DNA from: Hyphococcus sp.
Lineage (GTDB): Bacteria > Pseudomonadota > Alphaproteobacteria > Caulobacterales > Parvularculaceae
Direction: 5' to 3'
NCBI GenBank assembly: GCA_028289605.1
Contig: JANQON010000011.1
Location: 1 to 64,000 of the forward strand
DNA: 64,000 nt
Part shown: positions 9,490 to 44,616 of the stretch, one piece after another
Position numbering within the stretch: position 1 is the first letter of the stretch
How the letters are laid out: every line of letters starts with the position of its first letter
Translations under genes and position numbers: made by a program
The notes under the pieces: generated by a model
Database searches by the model: none
Told to the model about the DNA's origin: nothing
Seen by the model: only the letters and a program-made list of their open reading frames with translations

Positions 9490-9554
9490 CGACAGGACTC
9501 GGGCTGACGGAAAAAGCCTCAGTCAAACTCTTCTCTTGTTCAACGTCTTTGCTG

Positions 9555-9568
9555 TTGACAGAGATCAA
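9555..9568. promoter_or_regulatory. FNR/DNR-type box TTGACAGAGATCAA
   Basis: A second TTGAC-N4-ATCAA site in the same intergenic region, centred about 130 bases before the CBS-pair gene start. With two sites 79 bases apart, each promoter could have its own. Confidence 0.65.
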
Positions 9569-9691
9569 CGTGAAACTGTTGTTCGCTCCGTATATTGCAT
9601 CTGTTCAATCGGTCAAACCTCAGCCCCCAAGATCTCAAACCATGGCGGCTAAGGATGATTGCAGTCATGAGCATTCCAAAGGAGAGAAGCA

Positions 9692-10108: not shown

Positions 10109-10137
10109 CGTTTGACGTATTTGAAAGTCCGAGCGCC

Positions 10138-28125: not shown

Positions 28126-28899
28126 TCAAAAGAGTCCGAAGAACCTTTTCTTTTTGTTCTGCGGATCCGTGAAGACAACGATCAGACTTGTGTTATCTTG
28201 TCGCTCGCGCCGCTTTTCATCCACCGACTGCAATAGTGCTTGTGCGAGCGCCTCGGCGTTGGTGTCGCCTTCATTCCTTGTGAGCGATGTTATTTCGCTC
28301 TGACTTAGCGTGTCGAGACCATCCGAAGCGAGAATATATGCGCCCCGAGCGGCTTTGACCTGTCCATGATCAATTAAGTCGATGTCGCTACCAGATAAGG
28401 CGCTGCGCAATGCGTTTCGCTGCGGATCATCCATGGCTTCCTGAACGGTGATACGGCCTTGCGCCGCCATTGAATCCAGCACGGGCGCCATTGAGTGGTC
28501 TTCATTAAGCTTTTCGAGCTCGCTGTCGCCGCAGTGATAAAGGTGCGAATCCCCGACGCTGATCCAGTGCACATCGTCGCCTGCAAAGTATGCGCCGATG
28601 AATGTCGCGCCCATGCCCGCAAGGTTGGAGTCATGCGCCGCCGCCTCTGCGATAGCGTCATTCGCCGCCTCCAGCGACCGCTTAAGGCGATGCTTAATTG
28701 TCCCGCGCGCAGCGGAGAATACTGTTGCGAATTTCTCAATAGCGGTAGCGCTCGCTACGTCTCCGCCCATATGACCGCCCATACCGTCGCTCAAGAGGCA
28801 AAGGACTGCGCCGTCGCCTTGTAGTTCGACGATCCGAACGGCGTCTTCTTGGCGTTTACGGGCGCCAACACTTTGTTGCGCCGCGACCGAAAACCTCAT
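28126..28899 (-). CDS. PP2C-type serine/threonine phosphatase
   Basis: A 257-residue protein phosphatase of the PP2C/Stp/PppA type. Metal-binding motifs are visible: KRQEDAVRI at the start, LLSDGMGGHMGGDVAS near residue 42, ISVGDSHLY, and LASDGLDTLSQSEI. It would reverse phosphorylation made by the neighbouring kinase. The ATG at 28897-28899 overlaps the FHA gene stop as ATGA; the frame is open further upstream inside that gene. Kinase, FHA adaptor and phosphatase form one operon, as in the threonine phosphorylation pathways of type VI secretion, although no such secretion genes are here. Confidence 0.93.
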   Translation of the reverse strand: MRFSVAAQQSVGARKRQEDAVRIVELQGDGAVLCLLSDGMGGHMGGDVASATAIEKFATVFSAARGTIKHRLKRSLEAANDAIAEAAAHDSNLAGMGATFIGAYFAGDDVHWISVGDSHLYHCGDSELEKLNEDHSMAPVLDSMAAQGRITVQEAMDDPQRNALRSALSGSDIDLIDHGQVKAARGAYILASDGLDTLSQSEITSLTRNEGDTNAEALAQALLQSVDEKRRERQDNTSLIVVFTDPQNKKKRFFGLF

Positions 28900-29510
28900 T
28901 TTGGTGCGTCGTTCTCTATCACTGTGCTCCAACTGAAATTCGGTCCGCAAAGAGGTTTAAACAGCAATTCAGTGTCACCGATAGTAATCTTTGCGCCGTC
29001 TTCGATTTCAGCGGGCGCGAGCACGGGATTATCGTTTAGATAGGTAAGGTTCTGGCTGCCGCCGTGATTGATAAAAAACCTCACATTTTTGTCGTCGAAG
29101 ATTATGGAACAGTGGTTTTCGCGGCTGATCTCTTCATCGCCAAATGCAAGCGACACCCGTTGCCCGGCGCCTCGCCCAACGCTGTTGACTCCGTATCCAA
29201 TCGGGAGGCTGGCTCCCCTTCCGGGGCCTTTCAACACCACGAGCCACCCCACGACAAAAGGACTGTCGGTCGTCTCGGCGGGCGTCTTTGCACCTGTTGC
29301 CTTCGCGGGTCTGTAAAGTCGTGTTTTTCCATCGTCTGCCGGATTGTCAACGGGTTGCGTCGCTCCGCCGGCAGACGGATTCCGGTCCATGCGTTCGGTT
29401 GTTTTGTCAGCGCTTTGGTCTAGCCTGCGCGTTTCCAGATCCGCATTGTCAATCCGGCGCGTCGTATTTTTGAAGAAATCGCTTTTTTTTGTTTCATCAT
29501 CGCCGCTCAT
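28896..29510 (-). CDS. FHA-domain adaptor with N-terminal T-x-x-(hydrophobic)-D repeats
   Basis: A 204-residue protein. Residues 1-80 look disordered and contain four evenly spaced motifs: T17RRID, T27RRLD, T38ERMD and T51QPVD, followed by a T63RLY. Residues about 85-195 form an FHA domain with GRGAGQRVSLAF and EEISRENHCSI. FHA domains bind phosphothreonine, often choosing the +3 residue, and the repeats have a hydrophobic residue at +3. They may therefore be kinase targets bound by FHA proteins of this locus. The gene sits between kinase and phosphatase genes and is translationally coupled to the latter. Confidence 0.9.
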   Translation of the reverse strand: MSGDDETKKSDFFKNTTRRIDNADLETRRLDQSADKTTERMDRNPSAGGATQPVDNPADDGKTRLYRPAKATGAKTPAETTDSPFVVGWLVVLKGPGRGASLPIGYGVNSVGRGAGQRVSLAFGDEEISRENHCSIIFDDKNVRFFINHGGSQNLTYLNDNPVLAPAEIEDGAKITIGDTELLFKPLCGPNFSWSTVIENDAPK

Positions 29511-29558
29511 TTCAATACCCTCTCCCTCCGGCGCCGTGCGGCCGGATGTTGTATGGCT

Positions 29559-30941
29559 TCACTCTCCGCGCAAAGCGCTTAAGCGCTCGCGCGCCGCAGG
29601 CGCGTTCGGCCCGTCCGGATATAGTTTCAGATACACTTCCATCGCCGCTGCCGTGTTGATCTCGCGAGCGTTGTCGAACGCTTCTCGTTCCCGTGGATCG
29701 ACGGTTTGGGCTTCGGGCTCACGATCAGGAATGGCGGCGGCAGGTTGAATCGGCTGAGGCGTTGCTGTCACCGCCGACGGATTTTCAGCCTCTTCGCTCT
29801 CTCCGCCAAGCCCAAAAGCAAGGAACAGAAGCCCCGCCACCGACGCGACGCCGACTGCGGCGATCACTAACGACGCTGGTCTCTGACGGCTTTTTGCGTC
29901 GCTTTCGCCGGCGATATCCGCTAATGCCGTGTTGTCCGCGGAAGAGCTGGGCGCTGCACCTGCAGGCATACTCTGTGCAATGATGGTTTTATCGACATCG
30001 CGAAAAGCAGCAGCCGGCGCTCGACTGTCTTGAGATGCGCCGGCAGATATGCGCGCCCGCCATTCGCCGACGGACTGCGGGCGGTCTTCTTCGTCCGGTG
30101 ACAGCGCCCAGTCTATCGCCGCGAGGAAATTCGCGTCAGCGCGCCCGTTGGCGCGTTCAGTGATCGGAACCATCGGATCTTTTCGAACGCGCTCCGTAGC
30201 CTCGGGAGGCTTTTCGCCGCAAAGGCACTGATAGGCGACTGCGCCTAATGAATATATGTCCGTCCACGGACCCTGATGACCATGAGTCGAGTATTGTTCA
30301 ATGGGTGCGAAGTGCGGCGTCAAGATCGCAGAGAGCGATTTGCTCCTAGAGCCGATTGCGTTCCGCGCCGCGCCAAAGTCGATCAACACTGGCGCGCCGT
30401 CAGATCGTATAATTATGTTCTGCGGTTTCACGTCACGATGTAGCATGTCCTTTCCATGGACGGCTGCGAGTCCGTCCATGAGAGGCAAAATAAGACGTGA
30501 CGTTTCTTGACCAGAAAGCGGGCCGCGCGATTTCAGAATCTCGTTCAGCGGATCGCCCTGGGCGAAGTCCATCACGATATAGGCGGTCTTGTTTCGCTCA
30601 ATGTACCGCAACACCCGGATTACGTTGGGGTGCTCGAACTTTGCGAGCGTGCGGGCTTCGTCGACAAATCGTTCAAGACCCCAAGCGTATTCGTCAAGAT
30701 CAGACTGTGCATGCGTTCGCGGAGCGACGGTGCTGTCTGGGCTGCGAAAAGCCAGGTGAGAAGGAAAATACTCCTTAACCGCCACCTTTTTGTCGAGATG
30801 GACGTCAGTCCCTAGATAGGTGATGCCGAACCCGCCGGAACCGATGCACTTGTCGATTTCATAGTCGTCCAGCCGATAGCCGTGCGGCAACATTTGGCCG
30901 GCTGCGTCTGTCTCTGCGTGACCCCCGGGTTCCCCTTGCAT
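29559..30941 (-). CDS. Hanks-type serine/threonine protein kinase, membrane-anchored
   Basis: A 460-residue PpkA-like kinase. The kinase domain (residues about 25-300) has the glycine loop GSGGFGITYLG, catalytic Lys56 in VAVKEYFP, HRD at 168-170 and DFG at 188-190, so it appears active. A proline/alanine linker with the possible phosphosite DKTIIAQ (T319) follows, then one membrane helix (about 356-380) and a short domain of helices at the C-terminus, expected in the periplasm. The ATG at 30939-30941 has GAGGA at the right distance; a GTG five codons upstream is possible. It is divergent from the FHA-protease genes. Confidence 0.94.
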   Translation of the reverse strand: MQGEPGGHAETDAAGQMLPHGYRLDDYEIDKCIGSGGFGITYLGTDVHLDKKVAVKEYFPSHLAFRSPDSTVAPRTHAQSDLDEYAWGLERFVDEARTLAKFEHPNVIRVLRYIERNKTAYIVMDFAQGDPLNEILKSRGPLSGQETSRLILPLMDGLAAVHGKDMLHRDVKPQNIIIRSDGAPVLIDFGAARNAIGSRSKSLSAILTPHFAPIEQYSTHGHQGPWTDIYSLGAVAYQCLCGEKPPEATERVRKDPMVPITERANGRADANFLAAIDWALSPDEEDRPQSVGEWRARISAGASQDSRAPAAAFRDVDKTIIAQSMPAGAAPSSSADNTALADIAGESDAKSRQRPASLVIAAVGVASVAGLLFLAFGLGGESEEAENPSAVTATPQPIQPAAAIPDREPEAQTVDPREREAFDNAREINTAAAMEVYLKLYPDGPNAPAARERLSALRGE

Positions 30942-31028
30942 TTGCTGTTTCCTCACGCTTGGCGTCGCGGCCCGGCGCGGGTCCTCATACCGATCTAGCG
31001 CATTGATCCGATTGATGTCTGGACCGGA

Positions 31029-31045
31029 TGGTAAATGATTGGTAA
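31029..31045. repeat. Direct repeat TGGTAA-N5-TGGTAA in the divergent region
   Basis: Two TGGTAA hexamers start 11 bases apart, one helical turn, in the 266-base gap between the kinase operon and the FHA-protease operon. Such repeats can bind a regulator on one DNA face. There is no other support for function. Confidence 0.3.
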
Positions 31046-31207
31046 TAAATTTGTCCAGTTTCGAGTATGCGAAAGTGTAGTGCTGCGGAATTTACGGACC
31101 GGCGGGGAACCAGACGATTTCAGACAATAAGGGGCTGTTTTCAGCAATTTTCGGCGCCGCATGCGCCAGCCTGAATCGCGCGCTCTTCGCCAAGACAAGG
31201 GGGTAAA

Positions 31208-32665
31208 ATGAAGAGACTGTGCCGCATTGCCATGATAGCGGCCGTCTGTAGCCAGGCGGTTTTAGTCTGCTTCAACGTATCGGCGTCAGCGCAAGACGAA
31301 ACGACAAACGCCGCCGTCCAGATCCTCTCATACCGCGACGGGAAGCTGCTCACCCAGGGCTCAGGCGCGCGGATCGGCGAAGACGTCATCGTTACCGCAG
31401 CGCACCTCGACTACGATGCAGACGCCCTAGTCGTGGCCGTCGGCGGCGGGGTTGAACAAACCGCAAGCGTCATCGTCGCCGATCGGGATAAGGACCTCTT
31501 GCTGCTCCGTGTTTCGGGTCTCGCCGGCGAACCGGCGCTGCTTGCGGTTTCCCCGCCGCCGGTCAACGACACTGTCGTGATCCGCGGGTTCTGGGCGGCG
31601 GATGAAGAACGCCAGTCGCCCAGACTTTTCGGCAAGAAACGCCCGCGCTTCCAGCCGCAGGTTCACGCCAGCCAGAACAACGCCAGCGCCATTGTTTATT
31701 CAGAAGATGCAAGTTTTTTGACAGCCCGGGCGTCGGCCGTCGGACGCGGCGGCTATGGAGCACCGGTTATAGACGATTGCGGCGGCGTCAGCGGCGTCGT
31801 TGTTGCACAGCCAGGCGCCGACATAGATGATTTATGGTCGCATCACACGCCCTCTTCTCAGCTGACCGTTGTGAGCGTAACTGCGGTCGCCGCACTCGCG
31901 GAGACGGCGTCATTGTCGCTCAATCTCGCCGACGAGCCTTGCACGCCGGCAACCGAGGCCGCGCTCCGAGCCGCACAAGCGGAAAAAGAAGCGGCTCGAT
32001 TGGAAGCTGAAGACGCTGAAAAGCGCGCGGATGAAGAACGCAAAAAGCGCGAGGAAGCCGAAAGGGAAAAAGAAGCGGAAAAACAACGCGCCGACGAAGC
32101 GGCGTCAGAGGCGGAAGAAACGCGCGAGGCCGCCGACGCGTTCGCCGAAGAAGCGGAAGAAAACCGCATCAAAATAAAGGAAGCGGAAAAGGAACGAGGG
32201 CTTTTTCTTCGTGCGGCCGCCGCGGCGGGCGCGGGTCTGGTCATCGCCGCCGGCTTGGCTGTTTGGCTGATGCGCCGGCGCAAGGTGGACAAACAGATCG
32301 CGGAAGCGGCGCTCGCCGACGCAACCGCGCGATACAATGACTGCCTTTTGAAGGGTGAAACAGCGAATGGAGAGCCTATCGCCATCAAGCTTTCAGGCGG
32401 AGACCTTCAGCACGAAGCCGATGGTGTTGTGCTTGGCCGCAATCCGGGTCAGGCGCAATTTGTTGTCGGCGACGATACGGTGTCCCGACGCCATGCGCGG
32501 ATATCCCTGATAGACGGCGTTCTTCATATCGAAGATCTGGATTCGACCGGCGGAACCAAAGTGAATGGCCAGATGCTTGCGCCGCGAACCCCGGCGCCGC
32601 TGCAATCCGGCGACTTTATCGAGCTCGGCGGAGCAAAGCTGAACTTTGAGGTATTGGAGGATTAG
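31208..32665 (+). CDS. Degenerate trypsin-like domain plus coiled coil, membrane helix and FHA domain
   Basis: A 485-residue protein. A signal peptide ends near ASAQD (residue 30). Residues about 33-240 have the trypsin-like pattern with VTAAHL (His66) and DRDKDLLLL (Asp94/96), but the catalytic Ser motif is GGYGAPV where GNSGGPV is expected, so Tyr183 stands at the Ser position. A 90-residue coiled coil rich in Glu, Ala and Lys follows, then a membrane helix near 340-360 and a cytoplasmic FHA domain with VLGRNPGQ, TVSRRHAR and STGGTKVNG. It is probably a periplasmic sensor or binding module linked to intracellular phosphothreonine. Its partner, with intact triad, is the next gene after six bases. 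Confidence 0.88.
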   Translation: MKRLCRIAMIAAVCSQAVLVCFNVSASAQDETTNAAVQILSYRDGKLLTQGSGARIGEDVIVTAAHLDYDADALVVAVGGGVEQTASVIVADRDKDLLLLRVSGLAGEPALLAVSPPPVNDTVVIRGFWAADEERQSPRLFGKKRPRFQPQVHASQNNASAIVYSEDASFLTARASAVGRGGYGAPVIDDCGGVSGVVVAQPGADIDDLWSHHTPSSQLTVVSVTAVAALAETASLSLNLADEPCTPATEAALRAAQAEKEAARLEAEDAEKRADEERKKREEAEREKEAEKQRADEAASEAEETREAADAFAEEAEENRIKIKEAEKERGLFLRAAAAAGAGLVIAAGLAVWLMRRRKVDKQIAEAALADATARYNDCLLKGETANGEPIAIKLSGGDLQHEADGVVLGRNPGQAQFVVGDDTVSRRHARISLIDGVLHIEDLDSTGGTKVNGQMLAPRTPAPLQSGDFIELGGAKLNFEVLED

Positions 32666-32671
32666 GCCGGC

Positions 32672-33994
32672 ATGAAGCAGGCGATCATCATCCTTGCATC
32701 GACCGCGTTTGCGCTCGGCGGCCCTGGCGCGGCGGCGCAAGACGAGCCAGACGAAGCCGAAATCGGAGTCGTAAAGATTTTCAGCGCCACCTATGACCGA
32801 CGCGGGCGGAACAAGGGCGCCGGTTCTGGTTCCGGTTTCGTTATCAACGACCGCGGTTACATCGCGACCAACCATCATGTCGTCAACGGCCGGACGACAA
32901 TTTATGTCGTGCCGGACGGCGGAAGCGTCAGCGGCGCCGTCGCCTATGGTCAATCGAACGCAACAGTTATCGACGCAGATGAAGAGCTCGACATCGCTAT
33001 CCTACGCGTCAATGATCCGTCCGCTTTCAAGCCGGCGACTCTTGCGTCTGTTTTGCCGGAAAAAGGCAAGCAAGTGTATGCTGTTGGTTTTCCAGGCAGC
33101 GCTGAGGCCCGGGATCTGGCGACGCCGATCTTGCGCGTTGACGCAACGATTACGACTGGCGTGTTGAGCCGGAAATCCTATGGGCCTTGGACCAACAGCG
33201 GAAAACCTCTCGAGCAACTTCAACATAGCGCGGATGTCAGTTGGGGCAACAGCGGCGGGCCGTTGAAGGATGAATGCGGCCGCGTTATCGGCATCAACAC
33301 CGAGATTTCACTGAAGGCGATCGGCAACAACATGACGGTCGTGCCAGGCGTGAATTTCGCTTCGAACATTTCCGAGTTGTTCAAAATTCTGGACGTCCAC
33401 GGGATCGAGTATTCCGCTCTGGACATCCCTTGCCTTTCGACAGCCGATCAAAGCGCGGAAGATCTTGTCAGCATTCAACGCACCCTCCGATGGACCCTGG
33501 TGTCCGGCGCTGCGGCGCTTGGCGCGCTCCTCTTCGCTGGCGTGATGCTGTTGCGCCGTCCGCGCGAGCGGGTTGTGCAAGTGGTTGAATCCTATTCCCA
33601 CGCATTGCGCCGATCAGGCCAAGGCGAACGGTCGACGATGCGGCCCGCCGAACAAGGTCGTCCGCAACAAGGCCAACAGACGCGCGCGCCGGTGCGGTTG
33701 ATCGGTCGCGACAGCAAGGGCGGCGAAGTGCGCATGGACATGGATGACTCGCGACTGCGCCGCGGAGTCGTTGTTGGTCGAGCGACATCGGACCGGGCCT
33801 TCGACATTCCGGACGACAGCGTGTCGCGCGCCCATGCGCAATTCGGTCTTGATGGCGAAAAACTGACGATAAAGGATCTCGGGTCGACCAACGGAACATA
33901 TGTAAACGGACGCAAACTCAAGGAACACGCGCCAGAGGCGATTCGCGCAGGCGATGAAATCAAGCTTGGCGGCGTCGTGATTTCGGTGCGGTAG
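32672..33994 (+). CDS. Trypsin-like serine protease with membrane helix and FHA domain
   Basis: A 440-residue protein with signal peptide (cleavage near AAAQD), a periplasmic HtrA/trypsin-type domain with intact triad His69 (ATNHHV), Asp107 (EELDIAIL) and Ser194 (WGNSGGPL), one membrane helix at about 272-295 and a cytoplasmic FHA domain (about 365-438) with VVVGRATSD, DSVSRAHAQ and STNGTYVNG. No PDZ domain is present. The orientation would let phosphothreonine binding inside the cell be tied to proteolysis outside the inner membrane. The preceding gene encodes an inactive-looking relative. Confidence 0.92.
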   Translation: MKQAIIILASTAFALGGPGAAAQDEPDEAEIGVVKIFSATYDRRGRNKGAGSGSGFVINDRGYIATNHHVVNGRTTIYVVPDGGSVSGAVAYGQSNATVIDADEELDIAILRVNDPSAFKPATLASVLPEKGKQVYAVGFPGSAEARDLATPILRVDATITTGVLSRKSYGPWTNSGKPLEQLQHSADVSWGNSGGPLKDECGRVIGINTEISLKAIGNNMTVVPGVNFASNISELFKILDVHGIEYSALDIPCLSTADQSAEDLVSIQRTLRWTLVSGAAALGALLFAGVMLLRRPRERVVQVVESYSHALRRSGQGERSTMRPAEQGRPQQGQQTRAPVRLIGRDSKGGEVRMDMDDSRLRRGVVVGRATSDRAFDIPDDSVSRAHAQFGLDGEKLTIKDLGSTNGTYVNGRKLKEHAPEAIRAGDEIKLGGVVISVR

Positions 33995-34033
33995 GCGGCA
34001 CTCTTAACGATTGATGGAGCAAGGAAGGAACGC

Positions 34034-34825
34034 GTGATGAAAAAACTGGTTTTGACGACAGGCGCTGCGCTTATGCTGAGTTCGTGCATGGCGACAGGCG
34101 ACCAAGTGCGCACTGGCTCGTTAGTGGGCTGTAGCGCGGCAGGGGCGCTGGTTGGCGGCGTTCTGATGCGGAACAGTTCAACCGGCGCACGGGTCGCCGG
34201 CGGTCTGGGTACGGCTGTTCTTTGCGGCGTGATTGCTGACGCGTGGGCCGATCATCTGGATGAACAAGATCGAGAACGTTTGGCGCAGGCTTCTATTGAG
34301 GCGGCCTCGACAAATGAAGAATCGACTTTTTCTAATCCCGAAAACGGGGTTCAAGGCAAAGTGAGAGTCGTCAATGTCGAGCCTACAGAGACGATCAGCA
34401 CCGATGTCGTCGTCCTCAAGGACCGCGTAGAACAAACTCCGCCGCTAGAGTTGATCAATGCAAACTACGAAGCAAATTCGTCAGCGAATGTCCGCGGAGG
34501 CCCGGGTACAGACTATAAGAACGTTGGCCGGCTTGCCGACGGCGATGTGCGCAAAGTGATCGGAAAAGTTCAGACGAAGAACTGGTATCTCATCGACGAG
34601 GGCGGCGCCGGGTCGGGCTATGTTTACGCCAACCTTTTGAAGCCGACGGACAAGGAACCGCCTGTTCTTTCAACGACCGGAGAACTGCAGACGGCTCAAG
34701 TTTCTGCAAATCTCTCCTGCAAAACCGTGCAACAGGACGTCACCACCAAAACCGGTGAGAATGTCAGCAAAACAATGAAAATGTGCCAGCAGAAAGACGG
34801 CTCCTGGGAATTCGAAACTGTATGA
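34034..34825 (+). CDS. SH3b-domain lipoprotein
   Basis: A 263-residue lipoprotein: signal peptide with lipobox LSSC, so Cys18 is the likely lipidated residue. A glycine-rich hydrophobic segment follows (GALVGGVLMRN ... AGGLGTAVLCG), then a bacterial SH3 domain around residues 145-205 (SANVRGGPGTDYKNVGRL, WYLIDEGGAGSGYVYANLL). The C-terminal part has two Cys. SH3b domains often bind peptidoglycan or envelope proteins. The gene lies in the FHA signalling locus and overlaps the next gene as ATGA. Role unknown; possibly an envelope sensor. Confidence 0.87.
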   Translation: MMKKLVLTTGAALMLSSCMATGDQVRTGSLVGCSAAGALVGGVLMRNSSTGARVAGGLGTAVLCGVIADAWADHLDEQDRERLAQASIEAASTNEESTFSNPENGVQGKVRVVNVEPTETISTDVVVLKDRVEQTPPLELINANYEANSSANVRGGPGTDYKNVGRLADGDVRKVIGKVQTKNWYLIDEGGAGSGYVYANLLKPTDKEPPVLSTTGELQTAQVSANLSCKTVQQDVTTKTGENVSKTMKMCQQKDGSWEFETV

Positions 34826-35241
34826 CGACGTTGTTCGCGGCTTCCAGCGCCGCCGCTTTTTTCGCGGCGCTGGCCCTTTTCGGTCTGGCCGCGCCCGCCT
34901 CCGCGCAGAGCTCCAAGCCGCGTTACATCGGCGGTAGCGAAGCGCACGGCGTGAAAGCGTATGCGATACAGAATCCATGCGTCGCCGGCTCCGCGGATGT
35001 CGATCTCATCGCGGAAGACCGAGCCATTTTCACCGAACCGCGCCGCAATGACGTACGCAATGTTATGAGCGGGGTCGCCTACGTAATCGGTGAAGAATGC
35101 GCTGCGCAGCAGGTTCGGATTCGCAAGGTCACCTTCGCCGGATACGCTGACGGCGAACTCTTGTTTGCAGCGGCCGTGACGCCGAACGGGGGGTGGCTGA
35201 ACGTAAGATCGGTCGAAATTGATGCGGCGACGGACCGCTGA
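34822..35241 (+). CDS. Secreted protein of unknown function
   Basis: A 139-residue exported protein with a signal peptide ending in APASAQ and two Cys in the mature part (NPCVAG, EECAAQQ). I recognise no family. The start ATG overlaps the stop of the SH3b lipoprotein gene, so the two are translationally coupled, and it is followed after 16 bases by the FHA-ABC gene. The frame extends upstream but only within the lipoprotein gene. Role unknown; the context suggests a periplasmic component of the FHA locus. Confidence 0.75.
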   Translation: MTTLFAASSAAAFFAALALFGLAAPASAQSSKPRYIGGSEAHGVKAYAIQNPCVAGSADVDLIAEDRAIFTEPRRNDVRNVMSGVAYVIGEECAAQQVRIRKVTFAGYADGELLFAAAVTPNGGWLNVRSVEIDAATDR

Positions 35242-35257
35242 ATAGGCGGCGCGGCGA

Positions 35258-37558
35258 ATGACAGATCCTTGTCTTGTGATTGACGGTCGCGAGGAGCCGA
35301 TTGCGCTCGGCGGCGAAACACTGTTGGGCAGAAGCGCTGAAGCCGATATCGCGTTTCCAGACGACATGACGTGCTCGCGCCGGCAAGCGATAATTACTGT
35401 CGATGACCGCGGCGTCATCATTCATCCGCTGTCAGAGAATGTTCCGGTGCTCGTAAATGGAACGCCTCTGGGCGGACCGGTCGCTGTGGAGCCTGGTTCC
35501 GAGATCACCTTCGGCGCGCAACGCATGACCCTGCGGGACAGCGCTTCAGCCATGCGCGGTCCTGCCGCTGCGCCCCCAGATGCAACCGTTTTTGCCGGCG
35601 GGAGAAGCGCCGCCAATGCGCCGCAGGAGCACGCCGACGACATTGCGTTACATGATCGCCTGATCATCGGACGCGCCGGCTCCGGAGCAGACGTCGAGCT
35701 CGACCATCCGACCGTTTCACGTCGTCATTCTCAGATTAGTCTTTCCAATGGCGTTGCGATTCGAGATCTTGGCAGCACTAACGGCACGTTTGTGAACGGC
35801 GCGCGGGTTGGCGGCGCGCAGCAGCTAAGTTCCGGCGATCGAGTCGAGATCGGCCCCTTTTCATTTGTGCTGGAGGGATTGCGCCTCAAATCGCGCGGCC
35901 GGACCGGGGCGGCCGCATTGTACGCATCCGGCCTCAGTCTCGAGGTTGCCTCAGGGTCTTCACGTCTGCGCATTCTCGATGATGTCAGCGTCGAGATTCA
36001 GCCTAAGGAGTTTGTTTGTATTGTCGGCCCAAGCGGATCAGGCAAGACAACCTTGATGAAAATCCTTGCGGGTCGTGCGACTCCGACCGGAGGCGCAGTG
36101 ACGCTCAACGACGTCGACCTCCGTACAAACTTCCAGAGCCTGAAACAAGATATGGCGATGGTGCCGCAACATGATGTGTTGCATGAAAACCTTAAACTTC
36201 GCAGGGCGTTGAATTATACGGCGATGCTACGCCTGCCGGAGGACACGTCAGCCGCTGTACGCGCGCAAGCAGTTGAAAGAGCCGCCGCAGATGTTGATCT
36301 CCAACATCGTCTTGACACGCGCATCGGCAATCTGAGCGGCGGCCAAAAAAAGCGTGCAAGCCTCGCCAGCGAGACGCTCAGCGGGCCGAGTCTTTTATTT
36401 CTGGATGAAGTCACAAGCGGCCTTGATGAGGCGACTGACCGTGAAATCATGCGCCTGTTGCGCCGCAAGGCCGACAACGGAATGACGGTCATTTGCGTGA
36501 CGCATACCCTCGCAAATGTAGAAGAGTTTTGCCACAAGCTTATTGTCATGGGCGAAGGCGGAGTTTTGAGCTTTGTCGGTCCGCCGCAAGACGCATTCCG
36601 GCACTTCGGCGTGTCGCGTCTTGGTGAAATCTTTGATCGTTTGCAGGAACAACCGGCGACATATTGGCGTGCGCAACTCGGCCCTTCGCAAAGCTTCTCG
36701 GCAACCGGCGCCGGCGGGCCGCAGTCCGAAAGCGCCAAACCGCGCGTATCTCCGGCGACACTGCTGCGGCAGTTCAGTATTCTGACCCGGCGCAACATCG
36801 ATTTACTTCTAGCGGATCGGCGAGCGCTGATTATGGCCGCGGCGCAATCCATATTAATTGGCGTCCTGATTGGGTATGCGTTCAATGATTTCGGCCCTCC
36901 CCCACAGGTGGAGATTACCTCAAAGAACGCGCTATTGCTTCTTCTCGGTCTTTGCGCCATCTGGCTCGGGTGCAATTCCGCTTCTCAGGACATTGTCGGC
37001 GAGTTGCCGATATTCCGCAGAGAGAACGACGTAAACCTGTCCGCCGGCGCCTTCGTGGTTTCAAAGTTTGTTGTCAGCGGCGCATTCACCATGCTGCAAC
37101 TTGCCGTAGTGTTCGGTTTAGTCGCCATGTTCGCTGATTCGGTGCCGGGCGAGCCCATAGCGCAGTTGACGCTCCTTCTGATTGGCGCTCTCGCCGGCAC
37201 CAGCATTGGCCTGCTGATTTCTTCCCTGGCTGACACCAATGAGCAGGCGACCACGATTGTGCCGCTTGCATTGGTGCCGCAGCTTATTCTGGCCGGGGTG
37301 CTTGTTCCAAAACTGCCGGAATTTGCGACTGCAATCGCTAAAGTGGGCGTCAGCGGCTTTTGGCTGACGGAAGGAATGAAATCAAATCTGATCGAAGCAG
37401 AGGGCCCGATAGAGATTTTTGATCCGATGGCGAACGCAATCGTCGCCATGGAAGCTGAACCCGCGCTGGCAGGCGGAATCATTATTGGCGTACACAGTCT
37501 CTTTTTTCTGTTCTTGGCGTACCTGTTTGTCCTGCTCGGCGCGCGCAAGCGCGACTGA
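35258..37558 (+). CDS. FHA-FHA-ABC exporter (ABCG-like, single polypeptide)
   Basis: A 766-residue protein. FHA1 (about 20-95) is degenerate: the usual SRRH reads SRRQ and there is no STNGT. FHA2 (about 130-205) is canonical, with LIIGRAGSG, TVSRRHSQI and GSTNGTFVNG. Between them is a linker with DATVFAGG (T110), a possible phosphosite. The ATPase has Walker A GPSGSGKTT (257-265), signature LSGGQ (359-363) and Walker B LLFLDE (379-384). About six membrane helices follow from residue 520. This resembles the design of Mycobacterium tuberculosis Rv1747, an FHA-controlled ABC transporter phosphorylated by PknF. The substrate is unknown. Confidence 0.93.
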   Translation: MTDPCLVIDGREEPIALGGETLLGRSAEADIAFPDDMTCSRRQAIITVDDRGVIIHPLSENVPVLVNGTPLGGPVAVEPGSEITFGAQRMTLRDSASAMRGPAAAPPDATVFAGGRSAANAPQEHADDIALHDRLIIGRAGSGADVELDHPTVSRRHSQISLSNGVAIRDLGSTNGTFVNGARVGGAQQLSSGDRVEIGPFSFVLEGLRLKSRGRTGAAALYASGLSLEVASGSSRLRILDDVSVEIQPKEFVCIVGPSGSGKTTLMKILAGRATPTGGAVTLNDVDLRTNFQSLKQDMAMVPQHDVLHENLKLRRALNYTAMLRLPEDTSAAVRAQAVERAAADVDLQHRLDTRIGNLSGGQKKRASLASETLSGPSLLFLDEVTSGLDEATDREIMRLLRRKADNGMTVICVTHTLANVEEFCHKLIVMGEGGVLSFVGPPQDAFRHFGVSRLGEIFDRLQEQPATYWRAQLGPSQSFSATGAGGPQSESAKPRVSPATLLRQFSILTRRNIDLLLADRRALIMAAAQSILIGVLIGYAFNDFGPPPQVEITSKNALLLLLGLCAIWLGCNSASQDIVGELPIFRRENDVNLSAGAFVVSKFVVSGAFTMLQLAVVFGLVAMFADSVPGEPIAQLTLLLIGALAGTSIGLLISSLADTNEQATTIVPLALVPQLILAGVLVPKLPEFATAIAKVGVSGFWLTEGMKSNLIEAEGPIEIFDPMANAIVAMEAEPALAGGIIIGVHSLFFLFLAYLFVLLGARKRD

Positions 37559-37576
37559 CGGCGCACTGAACACATC

Positions 37577-38464
37577 ATGTATACAGACGCTTTCATTAGT
37601 CATTCCAGCCGTGATCAGCGACGCGCGCAGACAATCTGCGCGCTGTTGGAAAAGAAGGGCCTGTCTTGCTGGATAGCCCCGCGCGATGTGCGGCCTGGGC
37701 GCGACTATGCAATCGAAATCCTCGATGGCATCGAGAACGCGGCGGCTTTTGTTGTGACCCTGTCAGAGTCGGCGAACGAATCAGAATTTGTGAAACGTGA
37801 AGTGGAGCGCGCCGCGAATTGGCGCAAGCCAATCATTTGCGTGCGGCTGTCCAACGTAATGCCAGCGCGCGCGCTGGAATTGTTTCTGTCAACGACCCAC
37901 TGGATCGACGCTTTCGGTCCGGTTGACGATAGAGGACGCTACGACATTGTTCGCGCCGTACGCGCCGCCGGCGGCGGTCCGTCTCATCTATCCGCTGATG
38001 CGAGTCGGTCAGTTCATCCCACGGCAAAGAGCGTCCACTCATTCCCGTCCATGTTGAAATGGAGATTGGGTCAAGCGCGACGCGCTTTAAATCGCTTTGC
38101 CGATCTAGAATTCGCAGCAAAACTATTCGGACGTCGCGATGTGCGTTTTCAAGCTTTGGCGTTCTTGCCTCATGACACACGCTTTTCGTTTCGCGGCTTA
38201 AAAATTGAACGGAGCGATATAGAACGCGGCGTCACGCTTGGGCGCGGCGATGACGCCGGGCAGTACCAGATCAATCACCCAACGATTTCGCGCAGGCATC
38301 TTGAGATGATTTCAACTTCACGCGGAATCAGGATCACCGATCTGGGGTCTACCAATGGAACATTTATCAACCAAATGAGGCTGAAACCGCATACGCAGTA
38401 TCGGTTTTCGATCGGCGATCGGCTGCGCATTGGGGGACTGGACGTATCGGTTTACCCATCGTGA
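37577..38464 (+). CDS. TIR-FHA fusion protein
   Basis: A 295-residue protein with an N-terminal TIR domain (residues 1-115) and a C-terminal FHA domain (about 205-293). The TIR part has DAFISHSSRD, CWIAPRDVRPGRDY and SEFVKREVERA; Glu75 is in the position of the catalytic Glu of TIR NADases. The FHA part has VTLGRGDD, TISRRHLEM and GSTNGTFIN. There is no membrane segment, so it is cytoplasmic. It is the last gene of the FHA locus, 18 bases after the ABC gene. TIR may be an NAD-cleaving effector or a scaffold; neither is shown. Confidence 0.92.
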   Translation: MYTDAFISHSSRDQRRAQTICALLEKKGLSCWIAPRDVRPGRDYAIEILDGIENAAAFVVTLSESANESEFVKREVERAANWRKPIICVRLSNVMPARALELFLSTTHWIDAFGPVDDRGRYDIVRAVRAAGGGPSHLSADASRSVHPTAKSVHSFPSMLKWRLGQARRALNRFADLEFAAKLFGRRDVRFQALAFLPHDTRFSFRGLKIERSDIERGVTLGRGDDAGQYQINHPTISRRHLEMISTSRGIRITDLGSTNGTFINQMRLKPHTQYRFSIGDRLRIGGLDVSVYPS

Positions 38465-39638: not shown

Positions 39639-40211
39639 CTACATGAATTCATGTATCGAATCGCCCTCAAACTCGGCTCGAAGCTTGGCGACGCCCCGAC
39701 GCACCCATGACTTCACCGTGTTAGCCGGCGCTTCCATTTTGTCTGAAATTTCAGCAATCGAGTTCTCTTCCAAATAGAAAAGACGGACAGCGTTTCGTTG
39801 GGAGTCTGGTAAACGATCCAAGCGCTTAGCGAGCTCACTGGAGACATTGCCCGCCAGCGTGCGATCGAACGGGCTTTTCTCGTCGGCAACGTACCGGTCG
39901 CAAAACTCTTGCCCGACATGCCCCGGTCGCCGGCGCCGGAGCGCATCGATGCCGGCGTTTCTCGTTATAACCGAAAGCCAGGCAATGGCGCCGCCCCGCT
40001 TGGGATCAAAACGGTCTGCTCTGTTCCAGACGGCGATGTAAACCTCTTGCAACACGTCGCCGGCTTCGGTCTGATCGCCCAGAATTCTGATCAATACGGC
40101 GAACAGTTTTCCCGATGTCGCTGCGTAGAGCGCCCTGAAGGCATGCCGATCGCCTGTCGCTGTTTTCAGCAAAAGCGCATTGAGCGCCATGCCGTTAGCC
40201 GAATTTTCCAC
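39639..40211 (-). CDS. ECF RNA polymerase sigma factor (orphan)
   Basis: A 190-residue ECF sigma factor with sigma-2 (residues about 20-90; LYAATSGKLFAVLIRIL, DVLQEVYIAVW, GGAIAWLSVITRNAGIDALRRRR) and sigma-4 (about 130-180; LDRLPDSQRNAVRLFYLEENSIAEIS and NTVKSWVRRG). No anti-sigma gene is next to it. It resembles the second ECF at 42.3 kb, which has a cupin anti-sigma partner, so it may share that partner or be controlled otherwise. A candidate ECF promoter lies upstream at 40251-40278. Confidence 0.92.
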   Translation of the reverse strand: MENSANGMALNALLLKTATGDRHAFRALYAATSGKLFAVLIRILGDQTEAGDVLQEVYIAVWNRADRFDPKRGGAIAWLSVITRNAGIDALRRRRPGHVGQEFCDRYVADEKSPFDRTLAGNVSSELAKRLDRLPDSQRNAVRLFYLEENSIAEISDKMEAPANTVKSWVRRGVAKLRAEFEGDSIHEFM

Positions 40212-40250
40212 TGCCCGCTCCGCCTTGCTTCCTGTTGTGGATCGGGCGTG

Positions 40251-40278
40251 TTTACGACGAGCGCACAGAAAAGTTCAC
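40251..40278 (-). promoter_or_regulatory. Candidate ECF promoter AACTTT-N13-CGTAAA
   Basis: On the minus strand GTGAACTTT, 13 bases and CGTAAAC lie about 40 bases before the ECF gene that ends at 39639. It is similar to two sites before the DUF4331 and ferritin genes, with one base less spacing. Confidence 0.4.
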
Positions 40279-40455
40279 GAGCGATCAACGAAGGTCTTCA
40301 CGGCTGCGTGAGACTGGCGCAGCGCACTTTTTTGGTTCCGCGCTGCGCCGCCAGCCTTGTAGTGAGGGCTTCATCGTCTCGCCTTCGAGCGACGCCGCCG
40401 TCATTGCGCCAGGCCGATTTCCGATCTTCTTGAACTATTCAATTGCTCAACTGAC

Positions 40456-40483
40456 GAAAACGGGCGGGTTTGTTCCCGCCCGT
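40456..40483 (-). terminator. Rho-independent terminator after the DUF4331 gene
   Basis: On the minus strand a perfect 9-bp stem, ACGGGCGGG / CCCGCCCGT with a six-base loop, is followed by TTTT. It begins about 15 bases after the DUF4331 stop codon. Confidence 0.85.
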
Positions 40484-40497
40484 CGCATTATAATGCG
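40484..40497. repeat. 14-bp palindrome CGCATTATAATGCG
   Basis: A perfect palindrome sits between the DUF4331 stop codon and the terminator stem. It may extend the terminator structure or be a protein-binding site; only the symmetry is seen. Confidence 0.4.
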
Positions 40498-42015
40498 TTA
40501 CTCGTCGTCGCTTTCGTCATGATGCCCGTGGTTTCGCCCGTTGAGCGGCGTTGCCGCGTAGGGAAAGACGTCATTGTAGGTGATGTCATTGCGATCGACG
40601 CGATCGACATTGACGCCGGAGAATACCTGCGTGATGTCATCATTCGGGCCGGGAGTGATGCCGGTCAACCCCAGCGCAATAACGGCGATGTCGACTACAT
40701 CATCGCCGAACCGTCGACCATTTGGCCAACCGCCCGGAATAAAGCCGCCGTTACCGAACGGGTCTTGGACTTCGCTTTTGAGAATGTCCCCGCCGAACAC
40801 GCCCAGACGATTGAAGCCGTCCTCACCGGCAAGCTTCGCCGGTCCCGTCGTCAAATCGACTTTGATGAGGTCGGGAATATAGATCTGTTCAAGAAGTCCA
40901 GGGATCAGGGGGCCCGGGCCGAATCCGGCCAACTCCGGATTGGCCGCGATCTCGGCGAGTTCGAAGTCGCCTTTAGGCGAGCCTTGGTTGTAAGCGTCTT
41001 TCTTGTTGATGGGCAGCAGCGCCTCGACAAAAAGAGGGTTGCCTTGGCGGCCCACCTGATCGAAGGCGCCGAATTGCGGTCCGAAAGTCTCGAATGATTT
41101 CGGGCCGTCATTCCTCTTGAAGTTTTCGAATTTTCGCCGGCTGGTTGTCGCATAGACTCCAGCGATTTTGGCGCCTTTCAATTCTTCGATTGGAATATTT
41201 AAGACGATCGTATGCACATTGAATCCGCCTTGGCTATCGAACGGTTTTGTCGGCGTGCCCGTGTTCCGGCCAAAGCTGAGGTCAAGGTCGAAGATGGATT
41301 GAATATCCGCGTAGAACCCGTCATCACGCTGACCGGCGAACGCGATGTATCCCTTCTTCAGTTCAGCGATTCCCGATTTTGTATAAGGATCGAGCGCGTC
41401 AATCGACGATACGCCTTCCTTGGCGCGCATGTCGCCGTCATCGTTAGTGTTGTAAAGCGGCGTCAGCAGGCCCTGATTGTTCGGCGGCACAATCAAGCCA
41501 TCCCGTATTCCGGAACCAAGAACTTCAACGCCGCCTTCGCGACGACGACCCTCGCGTCGTTTGCGGGACCGTTCACCACTCGTAACTTTTGTCACGCGGT
41601 AGGTTTGTTGAAGATTCTGGTTGCCGCCTCCGGGGGATACTACGCCCTGAAACGCTTGTAGGATCGTATTCTGATTGTCGTACTGAGTCGAAAAGTCAAA
41701 GTTGTACGTTAAGTTAGTTTTTCCGTTCGTTGCGTTCTCATCAAGCGCAACGTGGATCGAGTAGCGAACGCGGTCGTCAAAGCGATAAGCGTTGGGACCG
41801 ATGCCGGGCTCCTCAAACGGGAATACCGACAACGCAGTCGTGAGATAGAGTTGGCCTTTCGAGTCTTCGCTGAGAAAGGCGTAAACATCGGTCGTGTTCG
41901 CCGCGTCATCAAAAGTGATCAGCGGCGCGTCCATATGGCTCGATGCAAGCGCAGAATTTTGCGCGACTGCAGCCAGCCCGACCGCGGCTGCGGCCAGCAA
42001 AGTCTTCGTCTTCAT
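40498..42015 (-). CDS. DUF4331 family exported protein
   Basis: A 505-residue exported protein. A signal peptide ends at NSALAS, followed by the DUF4331 hallmark SHMDAPLITFDDAANTTDVYAFL. Later blocks are FNVHTIVLNIPIEELKG, FVEALLPINKKD and RLGVFGGDILKSEV. There is an insert of basic residues at about 150-165 (SRKRREGRRREGG). The C-terminal tail is His/Asp rich (NGRNHGHHDESDDE) and could bind metal. DUF4331 proteins often occur near ECF sigma factors and cytochromes; function unknown. It is divergent from the second ECF gene and has a candidate ECF promoter. Confidence 0.9.
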   Translation of the reverse strand: MKTKTLLAAAAVGLAAVAQNSALASSHMDAPLITFDDAANTTDVYAFLSEDSKGQLYLTTALSVFPFEEPGIGPNAYRFDDRVRYSIHVALDENATNGKTNLTYNFDFSTQYDNQNTILQAFQGVVSPGGGNQNLQQTYRVTKVTSGERSRKRREGRRREGGVEVLGSGIRDGLIVPPNNQGLLTPLYNTNDDGDMRAKEGVSSIDALDPYTKSGIAELKKGYIAFAGQRDDGFYADIQSIFDLDLSFGRNTGTPTKPFDSQGGFNVHTIVLNIPIEELKGAKIAGVYATTSRRKFENFKRNDGPKSFETFGPQFGAFDQVGRQGNPLFVEALLPINKKDAYNQGSPKGDFELAEIAANPELAGFGPGPLIPGLLEQIYIPDLIKVDLTTGPAKLAGEDGFNRLGVFGGDILKSEVQDPFGNGGFIPGGWPNGRRFGDDVVDIAVIALGLTGITPGPNDDITQVFSGVNVDRVDRNDITYNDVFPYAATPLNGRNHGHHDESDDE

Positions 42016-42081
42016 ACAAGTCTCCGTTTGGGTTATGCGGCCGGGATGCGGCCTGCGCGACGCGATGCGCCGACAGGTCCA

Positions 42082-42109
42082 TAAACGTGACTATTGCCCA
42101 AAAAGTTGC
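42082..42109 (-). promoter_or_regulatory. Candidate ECF promoter GCAACTTT-N14-CGTTTA
   Basis: On the minus strand, upstream of DUF4331, GCAACTTT is followed after 14 bases by CGTTTA, about 67 bases before the start codon. The same GCAACTTT-N14-CGTATT is found before the ferritin gene at 43.4 kb. Confidence 0.5.
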
Positions 42110-42272
42110 GGTCGCCATTGGCGGCCTGCGCGCAGAAGCCGAATTCGGAGTAGCGCGGTGAAACCGGTTTTCCGATTAAAGCCCAAATTTCCGTCGCCGC
42201 GCCGAAGACAGGCAAGCGCTGAAGCGATATAGTCTTGCCGCCTTCAGAGCAACGAATAACGGGGAGTATGGG

Positions 42273-42818
42273 GTGAAAACCAGCGGTGAAACGGCGACGT
42301 TACTTGGCGAAATCGCCGCAGGCGATCGGGCGGCGTTCCGTACGCTGTATGAGGCTACTGCGCCGAAACTTTTTGCGGTCGCCATGCGTATACTCAAAGA
42401 TACGCAAAAATCGGCCGACGCGGTCCAGGACGCCTATCTGCAGATTTGGCGGCGGGCCGCTCAGTATGACGTTGAAAAGGGCGCCGTTGAGGCATGGATG
42501 GTCAGTATCGTAAGGTTTAGGGCCATTGACATTGCGCGACGCGAGCGGACGCAATCGGAGTACATTGAAGGTAATTTCGTGGAAGAACTCGAGACTGTGT
42601 CCATGCCGGCAAATGCCGACGGTACTCCCGAAACGATGATCGCTCTTCGCGACTGCTTGGAGCGGATTGGAGGCGATCAGAGGCGCGCGCTATTGGAAGT
42701 TCACTTCAACGGATACACAGGAGAAGAGTTCGCCGCCCGGCACCAAATCCCGGTGGGGACAATCAAGAGCCGAGTTCGCCGCGGCCTCCAAAGCTTGCGA
42801 ACGTGCATGGAGCAATAA
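42273..42818 (+). CDS. ECF RNA polymerase sigma factor
   Basis: A 181-residue ECF sigma factor close in sequence to the orphan one at 39.6 kb (LGEIAAGDRAAFRTLYEATAPKLFAVAMRIL, DAVQDAYLQIWRRAAQYDVEKGAVEAWMVSI). Sigma-4 has IGGDQRRALLEVHFNGYTGEEFAARHQIPVGTIKSRVRRG. The start is GTG at 42273 with a GGGGAG site. It overlaps its anti-sigma gene by 16 bases, the usual arrangement for a coupled sigma/anti-sigma pair. Confidence 0.93.
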   Translation: MKTSGETATLLGEIAAGDRAAFRTLYEATAPKLFAVAMRILKDTQKSADAVQDAYLQIWRRAAQYDVEKGAVEAWMVSIVRFRAIDIARRERTQSEYIEGNFVEELETVSMPANADGTPETMIALRDCLERIGGDQRRALLEVHFNGYTGEEFAARHQIPVGTIKSRVRRGLQSLRTCMEQ

Positions 42819-43363
42819 CATTGACAGAGTCGACCGATACGCTCGCATCTGAATATGCGCTGGGAATACTAAGCGAGGGCGAGCGAATGCGCATTGAAGA
42901 ACAAGCGATTCGCGATCCAGAATTGGCTGCGCGGATAGCCTGGTGGACGAATTGCTTCTCGCCCTTGTCACTTGCAGGCGAAGATATTGATCCGCCTGAT
43001 GACTTGCTTTCGAAGATTGAAGAGAGGCTTGATCGGCAGCATGCTGCGGGCGGGGGCGGATCAACTACAATTCGCGAAACTGAAGGAAGATGGGTGGAGA
43101 TTGCGCCGGGCGCACGCAAAAAACATCTGTATTATGATGATAAGTCGCGTTCGGAGGCGTTTCTAATTGACCTCGATCCCGGCGCGCGTCTCCCCGAACA
43201 TGGACATGAGGGAACGGAAGACTGCCTGGTCATTTCTGGTGATTTTTCGATTGGCGACCTACGCCTGAAAGCAGGGGATTTTCACGCCGCATTCACTGCC
43301 TCACGCCATGCTGCTTGTCGTTCCGAAAGCGGGTGCCGCCTTTTTATAAAGGCCGCCGCATAG
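42803..43363 (+). CDS. Cupin-containing anti-sigma factor (RskA/ChrR-like)
   Basis: A 186-residue protein that probably binds the sigma factor encoded just upstream. The N-terminal part (residues about 10-60; ASEYALGILSEGERMRIEEQ and AWWTNCFSPLS) has the RskA-type anti-sigma pattern rather than a zinc-binding ZAS motif. The C-terminal part is a cupin (residues about 95-180) with EHGHEGTEDCLVISG, where His and Glu could bind a metal, as in the ChrR cupin that senses singlet oxygen. No membrane helix, so cytoplasmic. The start is GTG 42803 or possibly TTG 42821. Confidence 0.87.
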   Translation: MHGAITLTESTDTLASEYALGILSEGERMRIEEQAIRDPELAARIAWWTNCFSPLSLAGEDIDPPDDLLSKIEERLDRQHAAGGGGSTTIRETEGRWVEIAPGARKKHLYYDDKSRSEAFLIDLDPGARLPEHGHEGTEDCLVISGDFSIGDLRLKAGDFHAAFTASRHAACRSESGCRLFIKAAA

Positions 43364-43377
43364 ATCCCTTAAGCCGC

Positions 43378-43405
43378 GCAACTTTCGGCGCAGATCACTC
43401 GTATT
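43378..43405 (+). promoter_or_regulatory. Candidate ECF promoter GCAACTTT-N14-CGTATT
   Basis: GCAACTTT, 14 bases, CGTATT lies about 58 bases before the ferritin-like gene start. The -35-like part and spacing are identical to the site before DUF4331. Confidence 0.5.
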
Positions 43406-43463
43406 TCTTTTCGTAACCCATTGCCGGCCGCTTTCAGTGCGGGCGCTAGCGAAAGGAACTCTT

Positions 43464-44066
43464 GTGAAAAACAGTCAAGTTGACCATTTGTCGAGACCAT
43501 CTCGTCGGAATCTCATGCTGAACGGCGGGAAGGCCGTTCTATCAGCGTCGGCCGTTCTGGCGCTTTCCGGAGCAGGCGGGGCATTATCGCACGCATACGC
43601 ATCATCTGGGGATGCGTCGCAAGACGTCGCTATACTGAATGTCGCCTTGGCCCTGGAACATGAAGCGATCGGCGCCTATCAACTGGGTGCGGAAAGCGGT
43701 CTTCTCGCAAAAGACGTGCTGGGTGTTGCCGTCCAGTTCCAGTCCCATCACAAAGCGCATCGGGACGCCCTCGCCGACGCAATTAGAGCTATGGGCGGCG
43801 ACGCCGTTGACGCCAAAGACTTGTCGGAATATGCGAGCGCCCTGAACGCGGCGTCGCTTTCATCGCAAACCGACGTCCTGAAGCTGGCGGCGCGTCTCGA
43901 GCTCGGCGCAGCGAACGCCTATCTTGGCGTCATCCCGTCGTTTCAAAGCCAAGACCTGGCGCAGGTCTCCGCCCGCCTCGCAGCGGACGAAACCATGCAT
44001 TGGACGGCGTTATCATCGGTCCTTGGCGCGCCGCTTCCCAAAAACGCCCTCACCTTCGGCGCCTGA
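43464..44066 (+). CDS. Exported ferritin-like domain protein (copy A)
   Basis: A 200-residue protein with a leader that resembles a Tat signal (SRRNLMLNGGKAVLSASAV; RR then a hydrophobic run) and a four-helix ferritin-like domain. Candidate metal ligands are in ALEHEAIGAYQ, FQSHHKAHRDAL, RLELGAANAY and ADETMHW. It is a paralogue of the protein at 47.6 kb (copy B) and each is followed by a cytochrome c gene. I start it at GTG 43464, with AAAGGAA before it. A role in periplasmic iron or peroxide handling is inferred from the fold. Confidence 0.88.
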   Translation: MKNSQVDHLSRPSRRNLMLNGGKAVLSASAVLALSGAGGALSHAYASSGDASQDVAILNVALALEHEAIGAYQLGAESGLLAKDVLGVAVQFQSHHKAHRDALADAIRAMGGDAVDAKDLSEYASALNAASLSSQTDVLKLAARLELGAANAYLGVIPSFQSQDLAQVSARLAADETMHWTALSSVLGAPLPKNALTFGA

Positions 44067-44140
44067 CCTCCCCCTGGCGCCGTTTACGGCCGGCCTCTGC
44101 AAGCCCGCCCCCAAGCTTGCGGAGGCCGCACGGAGACAAC

Positions 44141-44578: not shown

Positions 44579-44616
44579 CGCTGTTACGGCGACATGTTCG
44601 CTTAAAGAAAGCAGAC

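Follow-up and report, generated by a model that had tools for sequence, protein, structure and literature searches.

A nine-gene FHA-domain locus in Hyphococcus joins a recurrent kinase, small FHA protein and PP2C module to protease, exporter and TIR partners

What does a bacterium do with five FHA-domain proteins encoded side by side in a genome that lacks the type VI secretion system (T6SS) sheath gene? The question is raised by positions 28126-38464 of a 64,000-nucleotide stretch of Hyphococcus sp. DNA (contig JANQON010000011.1; hereafter the window), where nine tightly packed genes form two divergent units 251 bp apart. A first-pass annotation had described a locus for phosphothreonine signalling from the envelope to the cytoplasm, a description that the analysis supports. 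The combination of genes is real, orderly and new, while its core recurs elsewhere and the architecture of its exporter is already known. With slightly better than even confidence, we read the locus as a modular phosphothreonine signalling device in which a phospho-switch in a core triad of kinase, small FHA protein and PP2C-type phosphatase gathers protease, exporter and TIR outputs.

All nine reading frames are open, with intergenic gaps of -55 to +48 bp inside the units (-43 to +39 bp in the plus-strand unit) (Table 1). The minus-strand unit encodes the core triad. The plus-strand unit encodes, in order, a degenerate-protease-FHA protein, a protease-FHA protein, an SH3b lipoprotein-like protein, a secreted protein, an FHA-FHA-ABC exporter and a TIR-FHA fusion. 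Pfam assigns PP2C_2, FHA and Pkinase to the triad, Trypsin_2 plus FHA to both protease proteins, SH3_3 to the lipoprotein, FHA, FHA, ABC_tran and ABC2_membrane to the exporter and TIR_2 plus FHA to the last protein. Reading frames and Pfam thus agree with the nine-gene, two-unit composition first proposed, comprising kinase, phosphatase, five FHA proteins, SH3b lipoprotein and secreted protein. The six FHA domains of the five proteins are all the PF00498 matches that a whole-genome search returns from this 4.29-Mb genome.

The kinase contains the motifs GSGGFG, VAVKE, HRDVKPQN and DFG, the phosphatase DGMGG, GDS, SDGL and DNT, and the ABC ATPase a Walker A and an LSGGQ motif. Against the NCBIfam Stp1/IreP model the phosphatase scores 142.5 bits, under the cut-off of 230. 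The first protease retains His and Asp and has GGYGAPV in place of GNSGGPL, whereas the full set of His, Asp and Ser, with GNSGGPL, is present in the second protease and in five relatives; the original labels 'degenerate' and 'active' are therefore both right as far as sequence tells. In both protease-FHA proteins hydropathy places one transmembrane (TM) segment between the two domains, so that the protease side would be periplasmic and the FHA side cytoplasmic. The FHA pocket is formed with the participation of the GR, SR and NGT residues; the Arg of GR and the Ser of SR are kept in all six domains, and NGT is complete in three (the trypsin-FHA protein, the second FHA domain of the exporter and the TIR-FHA fusion). 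TIR residue E75 is invariant in nine of nine sequences (the locus TIR and eight relatives) and coincides in the alignment with the glutamate of the WCxxE stretch in solved Cat1, which we take to be the catalytic residue. The locus domain would therefore keep the glutamate expected of a TIR NADase.

The core triad is not particular to this genome. A search with the small FHA protein returned eight places in 6 of 298 other genomes of the phylum, all of which were fetched, and 19 plasmid records, of which four were fetched, giving 12 loci. In 11 of these a PP2C gene lies directly 3′ of the small FHA gene; the twelfth, L079, is a short contig with a kinase fragment after the small FHA gene. A kinase lies inside the fetched stretch in 10 of the 12 loci, the L079 fragment included. 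By contrast, no FHA or PP2C neighbour was seen within about 1.5 kb at 29 loci holding the best matches of the kinase in the phylum, so the triad is not a general feature of this kinase family; these 29 are part of a longer match list, two weaker places of which (in genomes G797 and G706) are themselves triad loci (L080 and L076).

The partners of the triad vary. Five loci encode a trypsin-FHA protein, with a PP2C in the same stretch at four (L055, L057, L069 and L076, none at L056), a small FHA protein at three and a kinase at two (L069 and L076). Other partners are vWA-FHA proteins (L055, L069 and L076), a second PP2C, an FHA-kinase-DUF805 protein (L069), a MotA/ExbB channel (L055) and dynamin-family proteins, identified by annotation at L070-L072 and by Pfam at L074. 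The order at L055 (positions 5-7802) is vWA-FHA, minimal FHA protein, MotA/ExbB-type channel, small FHA, PP2C, vWA, second PP2C and trypsin-FHA, and we provisionally read the adjoining genes as flagellar. An FHA-ABC protein adjoins a kinase in Brasilonema, and in a Polyangiaceae metagenome-assembled genome (L041, positions 2793-10527) two FHA proteins, a PP2C and a three-FHA ABC exporter form one run. The recurrence supports kinase, small FHA protein and PP2C as a module with varying outputs. A further make-up is seen at L073 (8690-15228) and L075 (3818-10272), which encode a small FHA protein, a PP2C extended by about 600 residues, a further protein and a 669-residue protein with an N-terminal FHA domain; Pfam gives no match for the phosphatase extension, scanned in L073, or for the protein that follows.

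The small FHA proteins share a conserved threonine in otherwise divergent tails. Across 14 sequences aligned with MAFFT, the tails before the FHA region span 76-325 residues and share little sequence (median identity between pairs, 22%). Eleven tails, that of the locus included, contain KT[RQT][ILVMF] 22-36 residues ahead of the conserved start of the FHA region; in composition-preserving shuffles (2000 runs) a mean of 0.17 and a maximum of 2 of the 14 tails carried it. One alignment column is Thr in 13 of 14 rows, with Gly four columns on in 12, and the locus motif KTRLYR sits a few columns off. Leaving aside the domain-boundary Pro, this column Thr is the most conserved position of the tail. 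Its placement resembles what we assume for the N-terminal phospho-threonine of GarA and OdhI, and we propose the motif as a candidate phospho-switch. Threonine sites also occur in linkers of the locus proteins, as DATVFAG in the exporter and DKTIIAQ in the kinase.

The complete nine-gene set and the TIR-FHA fusion are confined to their own genome among the genomes searched, which are selections of species. Within the genus, 8 of 28 genomes (this one included) have any FHA domain, seven of them carrying one or two, and the cluster occurs in this genome only. The expectation that the set is conserved jointly in related genomes accordingly fails inside the genus; sub-sets occur together in distant genomes. 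Across a further 199 genomes of the order, 16 belonging to the same genus, the best of the exporter matches listed (E = 2.8e-37) covers the ATPase part only, and one match of 28% identity spans residues 31-486 with two stop codons. A full relative of the exporter is present in 1 of 384 other genomes of the class (G262), and the trypsin-FHA protein in 3 of 288 class genomes, G262 among them, where the two genes lie on separate contigs. A scan of genome contigs with two peptide patterns gave 10 loci, of which only L032, presumably identical with the G262 exporter contig given their shared length of 6,412 bases, and L041 match beyond the ATPase part. A tblastn search returned 13 plasmid-borne actinobacterial and cyanobacterial exporter relatives at 31-38% identity.

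For the TIR-FHA fusion, plasmids gave no match at 1e-10 and viral contigs no pattern match. Among 385 class genomes (own included) 8 have matches at 1e-12; the eight places listed beyond the locus itself match in the TIR part only, with no FHA domain found by phmmer and by eye. By eye, the close TIR relatives at L043, L045 and L046 have an N-terminal TIR domain, a proline-rich stretch, a hydrophobic segment and a different C-terminal part.

How might these parts work together? We envisage that an envelope signal activates the kinase, perhaps through the periplasmic tail of the kinase, the protease pair or the SH3b lipoprotein. The kinase would then phosphorylate threonines in disordered segments, first of all in the KT motif of the small FHA protein, in the manner of a GarA/OdhI-like switch, and possibly also in the exporter and kinase linkers. 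Contacts between phosphothreonines and FHA domains would gather the outputs at the inner membrane. As assigned from domain content, these are an anchored trypsin-like protease with its Ser-less paralogue, the FHA-FHA-ABC exporter and the TIR-FHA protein. TIR domains generally need oligomerization, so gathering could also switch the TIR enzyme on. The PP2C would dissolve the assembly and reset the system. We count in favour of such a device that G262, the sole other class genome with the exporter, also encodes the trypsin-FHA protein.

Several observations speak against this reading. No other genome among those searched carries the full set, and the G262 exporter has no FHA neighbour across its 6.4-kb contig. 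Three of the 14 tails (L069, L076 and L079) lack KT[RQT][ILVMF], aligning a Thr at the motif position within ETSPVG, GTQVGW and ETVLLG, respectively. The motif was also picked after inspection of the tails, which are homologous, so it shows conservation and not function. By eye, the kinase linkers of the locus and nine relatives share no Thr motif. The first FHA domain of the exporter lacks NGT, which is GGT in the degenerate-protease protein and NLT in the small FHA protein. At L073, L075 and L055 no kinase lies within the fetched stretch. A second Hanks-type kinase above the cut-off is encoded on another contig (C14 of the genome, 44039-44677, in an 804-residue open frame) and could act on the FHA proteins of the locus, which weakens the original description of the device as self-contained.

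An extended form of the signalling-device reading holds that the small FHA protein is a scaffold whose KT switch nucleates a membrane condensate, that kinase and phosphatase thereby control a TIR enzyme and a periplasmic protease, that the outputs are interchangeable, as with vWA domains in the relatives, and that such a plug-in phospho-signalling architecture is a trait of Proteobacteria. Taken jointly, we regard these proposals as speculative and rather doubtful. Were the signalling-device reading right, the triad would be a reusable core, independent of type VI secretion, to which Proteobacteria add outputs fused to FHA domains, and a TIR domain would have been placed under reversible phosphorylation. 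The conserved threonine of the small FHA protein offers a direct entry point, involving one residue, one kinase and one phosphatase.

Among described systems, the exporter compares most directly with Rv1747 of Mycobacterium, with which it shares its domain order (two FHA, ABC ATPase, ABC2 membrane) and a linked kinase gene, PknF in the mycobacterial case. Published work describes pknF-Rv1747 as an operon of a kinase and an FHA-FHA-ABC exporter (PMC3908365) and reports that the double-FHA part of Rv1747 condenses upon phosphorylation by PknF, which the phosphatase PstP reverses (PMC9312465), a precedent for the clustering proposed here. In the Hyphococcus locus, by contrast, the kinase belongs to a divergent operon, and the exporter is accompanied by small FHA, protease-FHA and TIR-FHA proteins.

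The small FHA protein resembles GarA, OdhI and FhaB in having a single FHA domain, an N-terminal Thr-containing tail and adjacent kinase and phosphatase genes, but it scores below the curated cut-offs (OdhI, 25.4 of 200 bits; FhaB, 38.9 of 125). The tail motif of GarA and OdhI is, we presume, of the ETTS type, unlike KT[RQT][ILVMF]. Loci of Leisingera and Ruegeria contain the same triad, with the kinase directly before FHA and PP2C (L070 and L072) or two genes away (L071), but have dynamin or solute-binding neighbours and no TIR or FHA-FHA-ABC gene in the stretch. Plasmid AZO_p4 of Azospirillum lipoferum 4B carries a small FHA, two PP2C, a trypsin-FHA and a kinase gene, but also vWA-FHA and FHA-kinase-DUF805 genes, and no TIR-FHA or FHA-FHA-ABC gene in the stretch. 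KKP prophage modules likewise combine kinase and PP2C in a compact unit, with two adjacent kinases, one of them bearing a cold-shock domain (CSD), and with their FHA domains fused to kinases (PMC11341870), whereas the present locus has one kinase, no CSD match at E = 0.1 and FHA domains on five other proteins. A single FHA-FHA-trypsin protein, from Bacteroides, appears in a survey published in 2008 (PMC2605481), and a kinase review belongs to the background literature (PMC6213207).

In open papers, most subscription journals lying outside this scope, we recognized nothing on the nine-gene set, no description of the core triad as a module accompanied by trypsin, TIR or dynamin genes, and no account of dynamin-family genes beside the triad as in Leisingera and Ruegeria. 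The first-pass annotation knew of no described system with this combination. That stands for the nine-gene set in the collections searched and does not extend to its parts, given that the triad and trypsin-FHA recur and that an FHA-FHA-ABC exporter with a linked kinase is the Rv1747/PknF arrangement.

Two alternatives concern the output of the locus and overlap with the reading as a phosphothreonine signalling device, and the probabilities attached to them do not sum to one. The better of the two, which we consider plausible while leaning against it, is that the locus serves envelope maintenance alone, its kinase and phosphatase adjusting the Rv1747-like exporter and the protease pair to envelope stress, with the TIR domain as a non-enzymatic scaffold. 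Six of the nine proteins are predicted to be membrane-bound, lipidated or secreted (hydropathy, lipobox), and an SH3b domain is present. Envelope maintenance also agrees with the FHA-ABC genes next to a kinase in Brasilonema and next to PP2C and FHA proteins at L041, and with the MotA/ExbB-type gene of L055, near genes read as flagellar without a domain call. A purely structural TIR domain, however, fits poorly with retention of the glutamate matching Cat1 WCxxE, whose catalytic role we assume, and with the TIR-FHA gene lying co-directionally 18 bp downstream of the exporter gene.

Anti-phage defence is a possible but unlikely role, in which phage attack would tilt the kinase/phosphatase balance and the clustered TIR domains would destroy NAD, giving anti-phage activity or abortive infection. 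There is precedent in KKP prophage modules, which defend through kinase/phosphatase balance (PMC11341870), and in conflict systems, where TIR and trypsin domains are common (PMC7159879, PMC8195603). The same conflict-system papers mention FHA among the effector or fused domains of other systems. The presence of the FHA cluster in 1 of 28 genus genomes, between two separately conserved gene blocks, would also suit defence. PADLOC, used as gene-level profiles without system rules, gave single-gene matches only, mostly generic; the best are kinase to mad6 (173 bits) and exporter to mad3 (113 bits), but the remainder fall on unspecific models for kinases, trypsins, ABC proteins and TIR domains, and with the curated NCBIfam MADS6 kinase model, whose cut-off is 460 bits, the kinase scores 128. 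A MADS system is not assigned on these scores. Relatives of the small FHA protein are absent from phage records and viral contigs (five viral-contig pattern matches, none related), which led us to reject a phage or viral origin, and the TIR-FHA pattern is absent from viral contigs. A Pfam scan of the locus proteins and of ten proteins encoded in the flanks finds no recombinase domain. As for the vWA-MoxR ternary systems (Kaur et al.), which have a vWA component and a separate MoxR NTPase, the best vWA match in the locus reaches 14.5 bits against a cut-off of 23.8, and among the 25 of 36 Pfam matches listed those of AAA type fall only on the exporter ABC ATPase.

A relic or orphan of the threonine-phosphorylation pathway of a lost T6SS is highly improbable and largely refuted, because the locus shares kinase, PP2C and FHA reader with PpkA/PppA/Fha1 but the sheath gene VipB/TssC (PF05943), the sole T6SS gene searched for, has no match in the whole genome (E. 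coli control positive), the related modules come with genes for trypsin, vWA or dynamin proteins, and the small FHA protein is not of the TagH type, with no VI_FHA match at E = 0.01 and a best NCBIfam match to FhaB_Rv0019c, below cut-off. The earlier statement that T6SS genes are missing is borne out to the extent of VipB. Against VI_FHA, the trypsin-FHA and TIR-FHA proteins score 35.1 and 27.7 bits, with a cut-off of 120.25.

Table 1 Features of the FHA locus, in window coordinates (aa, amino acids)
Feature	Position	Strand	Description
PP2C-type phosphatase	28126..28950	-	TTG start; 55-bp overlap with small FHA gene; Pfam PP2C_2 35.1 bits (cut-off 24)
Small FHA protein	28896..29510	-	87-aa Thr-rich, presumably disordered tail; FHA aa 110-178; Pfam FHA 38.9 bits
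Tail motif KTRLYR	29310..29327	-	aa 62-67 of small FHA protein; Thr63 candidate phospho-acceptor
Hanks-type kinase	29559..30956	-	Kinase aa 32-254 (Pfam Pkinase 126.1 bits), linker, one TM at about aa 359-387 (hydropathy), short predicted periplasmic tail
Degenerate protease-FHA protein	31208..32665	+	Signal-like N terminus, trypsin-like domain lacking the Ser nucleophile, stretch of charged repeats, TM, FHA
Protease-FHA protein	32672..33994	+	Signal-like N terminus, trypsin-like domain with full triad, TM, FHA
SH3b lipoprotein-like protein	34034..34825	+	SH3b aa 149-202, Pfam SH3_3 38.1 bits; lipobox-like LSSC
Secreted protein, 152 aa	34783..35241	+	Signal-like N-terminal segment, hydrophobic aa 13-43
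FHA-FHA-ABC-ATPase-ABC2 membrane exporter	35258..37558	+	Domains by Pfam; Rv1747-like architecture
TIR-FHA fusion	37577..38464	+	Pfam TIR_2 77.1 bits, FHA 56.9 bits; no hydrophobic segment; E75 kept

The 152-residue secreted protein has no family match in Pfam, NCBIfam or PADLOC. Single-sequence structure models of it and of the small FHA protein reached a mean predicted local distance difference test (pLDDT) score of 56 and 40, respectively, too weak to be used.

On either side of the nine genes lies a block that is conserved independently of the other, consistent with an accessory region that was acquired. On the left, at least two of three genes, which we provisionally read as thymidine phosphorylase, phosphoribosyl pyrophosphate (PRPP) synthetase and an MBL protein, are kept in all nine left-flank loci fetched from same-genus genomes; of the three loci fetched for the right flank, two retain part of it, from the DUF4331/ECF-sigma side. 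A search of these 12 flank loci at 1e-5 recovers none of the nine genes. With a G+C content of about 0.55-0.60 across 2-kb windows, the locus is unremarkable in composition and gives no transfer boundary, and no boundary repeat is seen among the 20 largest of 38 direct families or 25 of 32 inverted pairs. Further out on the left, positions 20833-22820 encode a nickel-dependent hydrogenase and a hydrogenase maturation protease. On the right, positions 39639-45993 encode a DUF4331 protein, two extracytoplasmic function (ECF)-type sigma factors, a ChrR-type cupin and a ferritin-like protein, an arrangement largely kept in two same-genus genomes.

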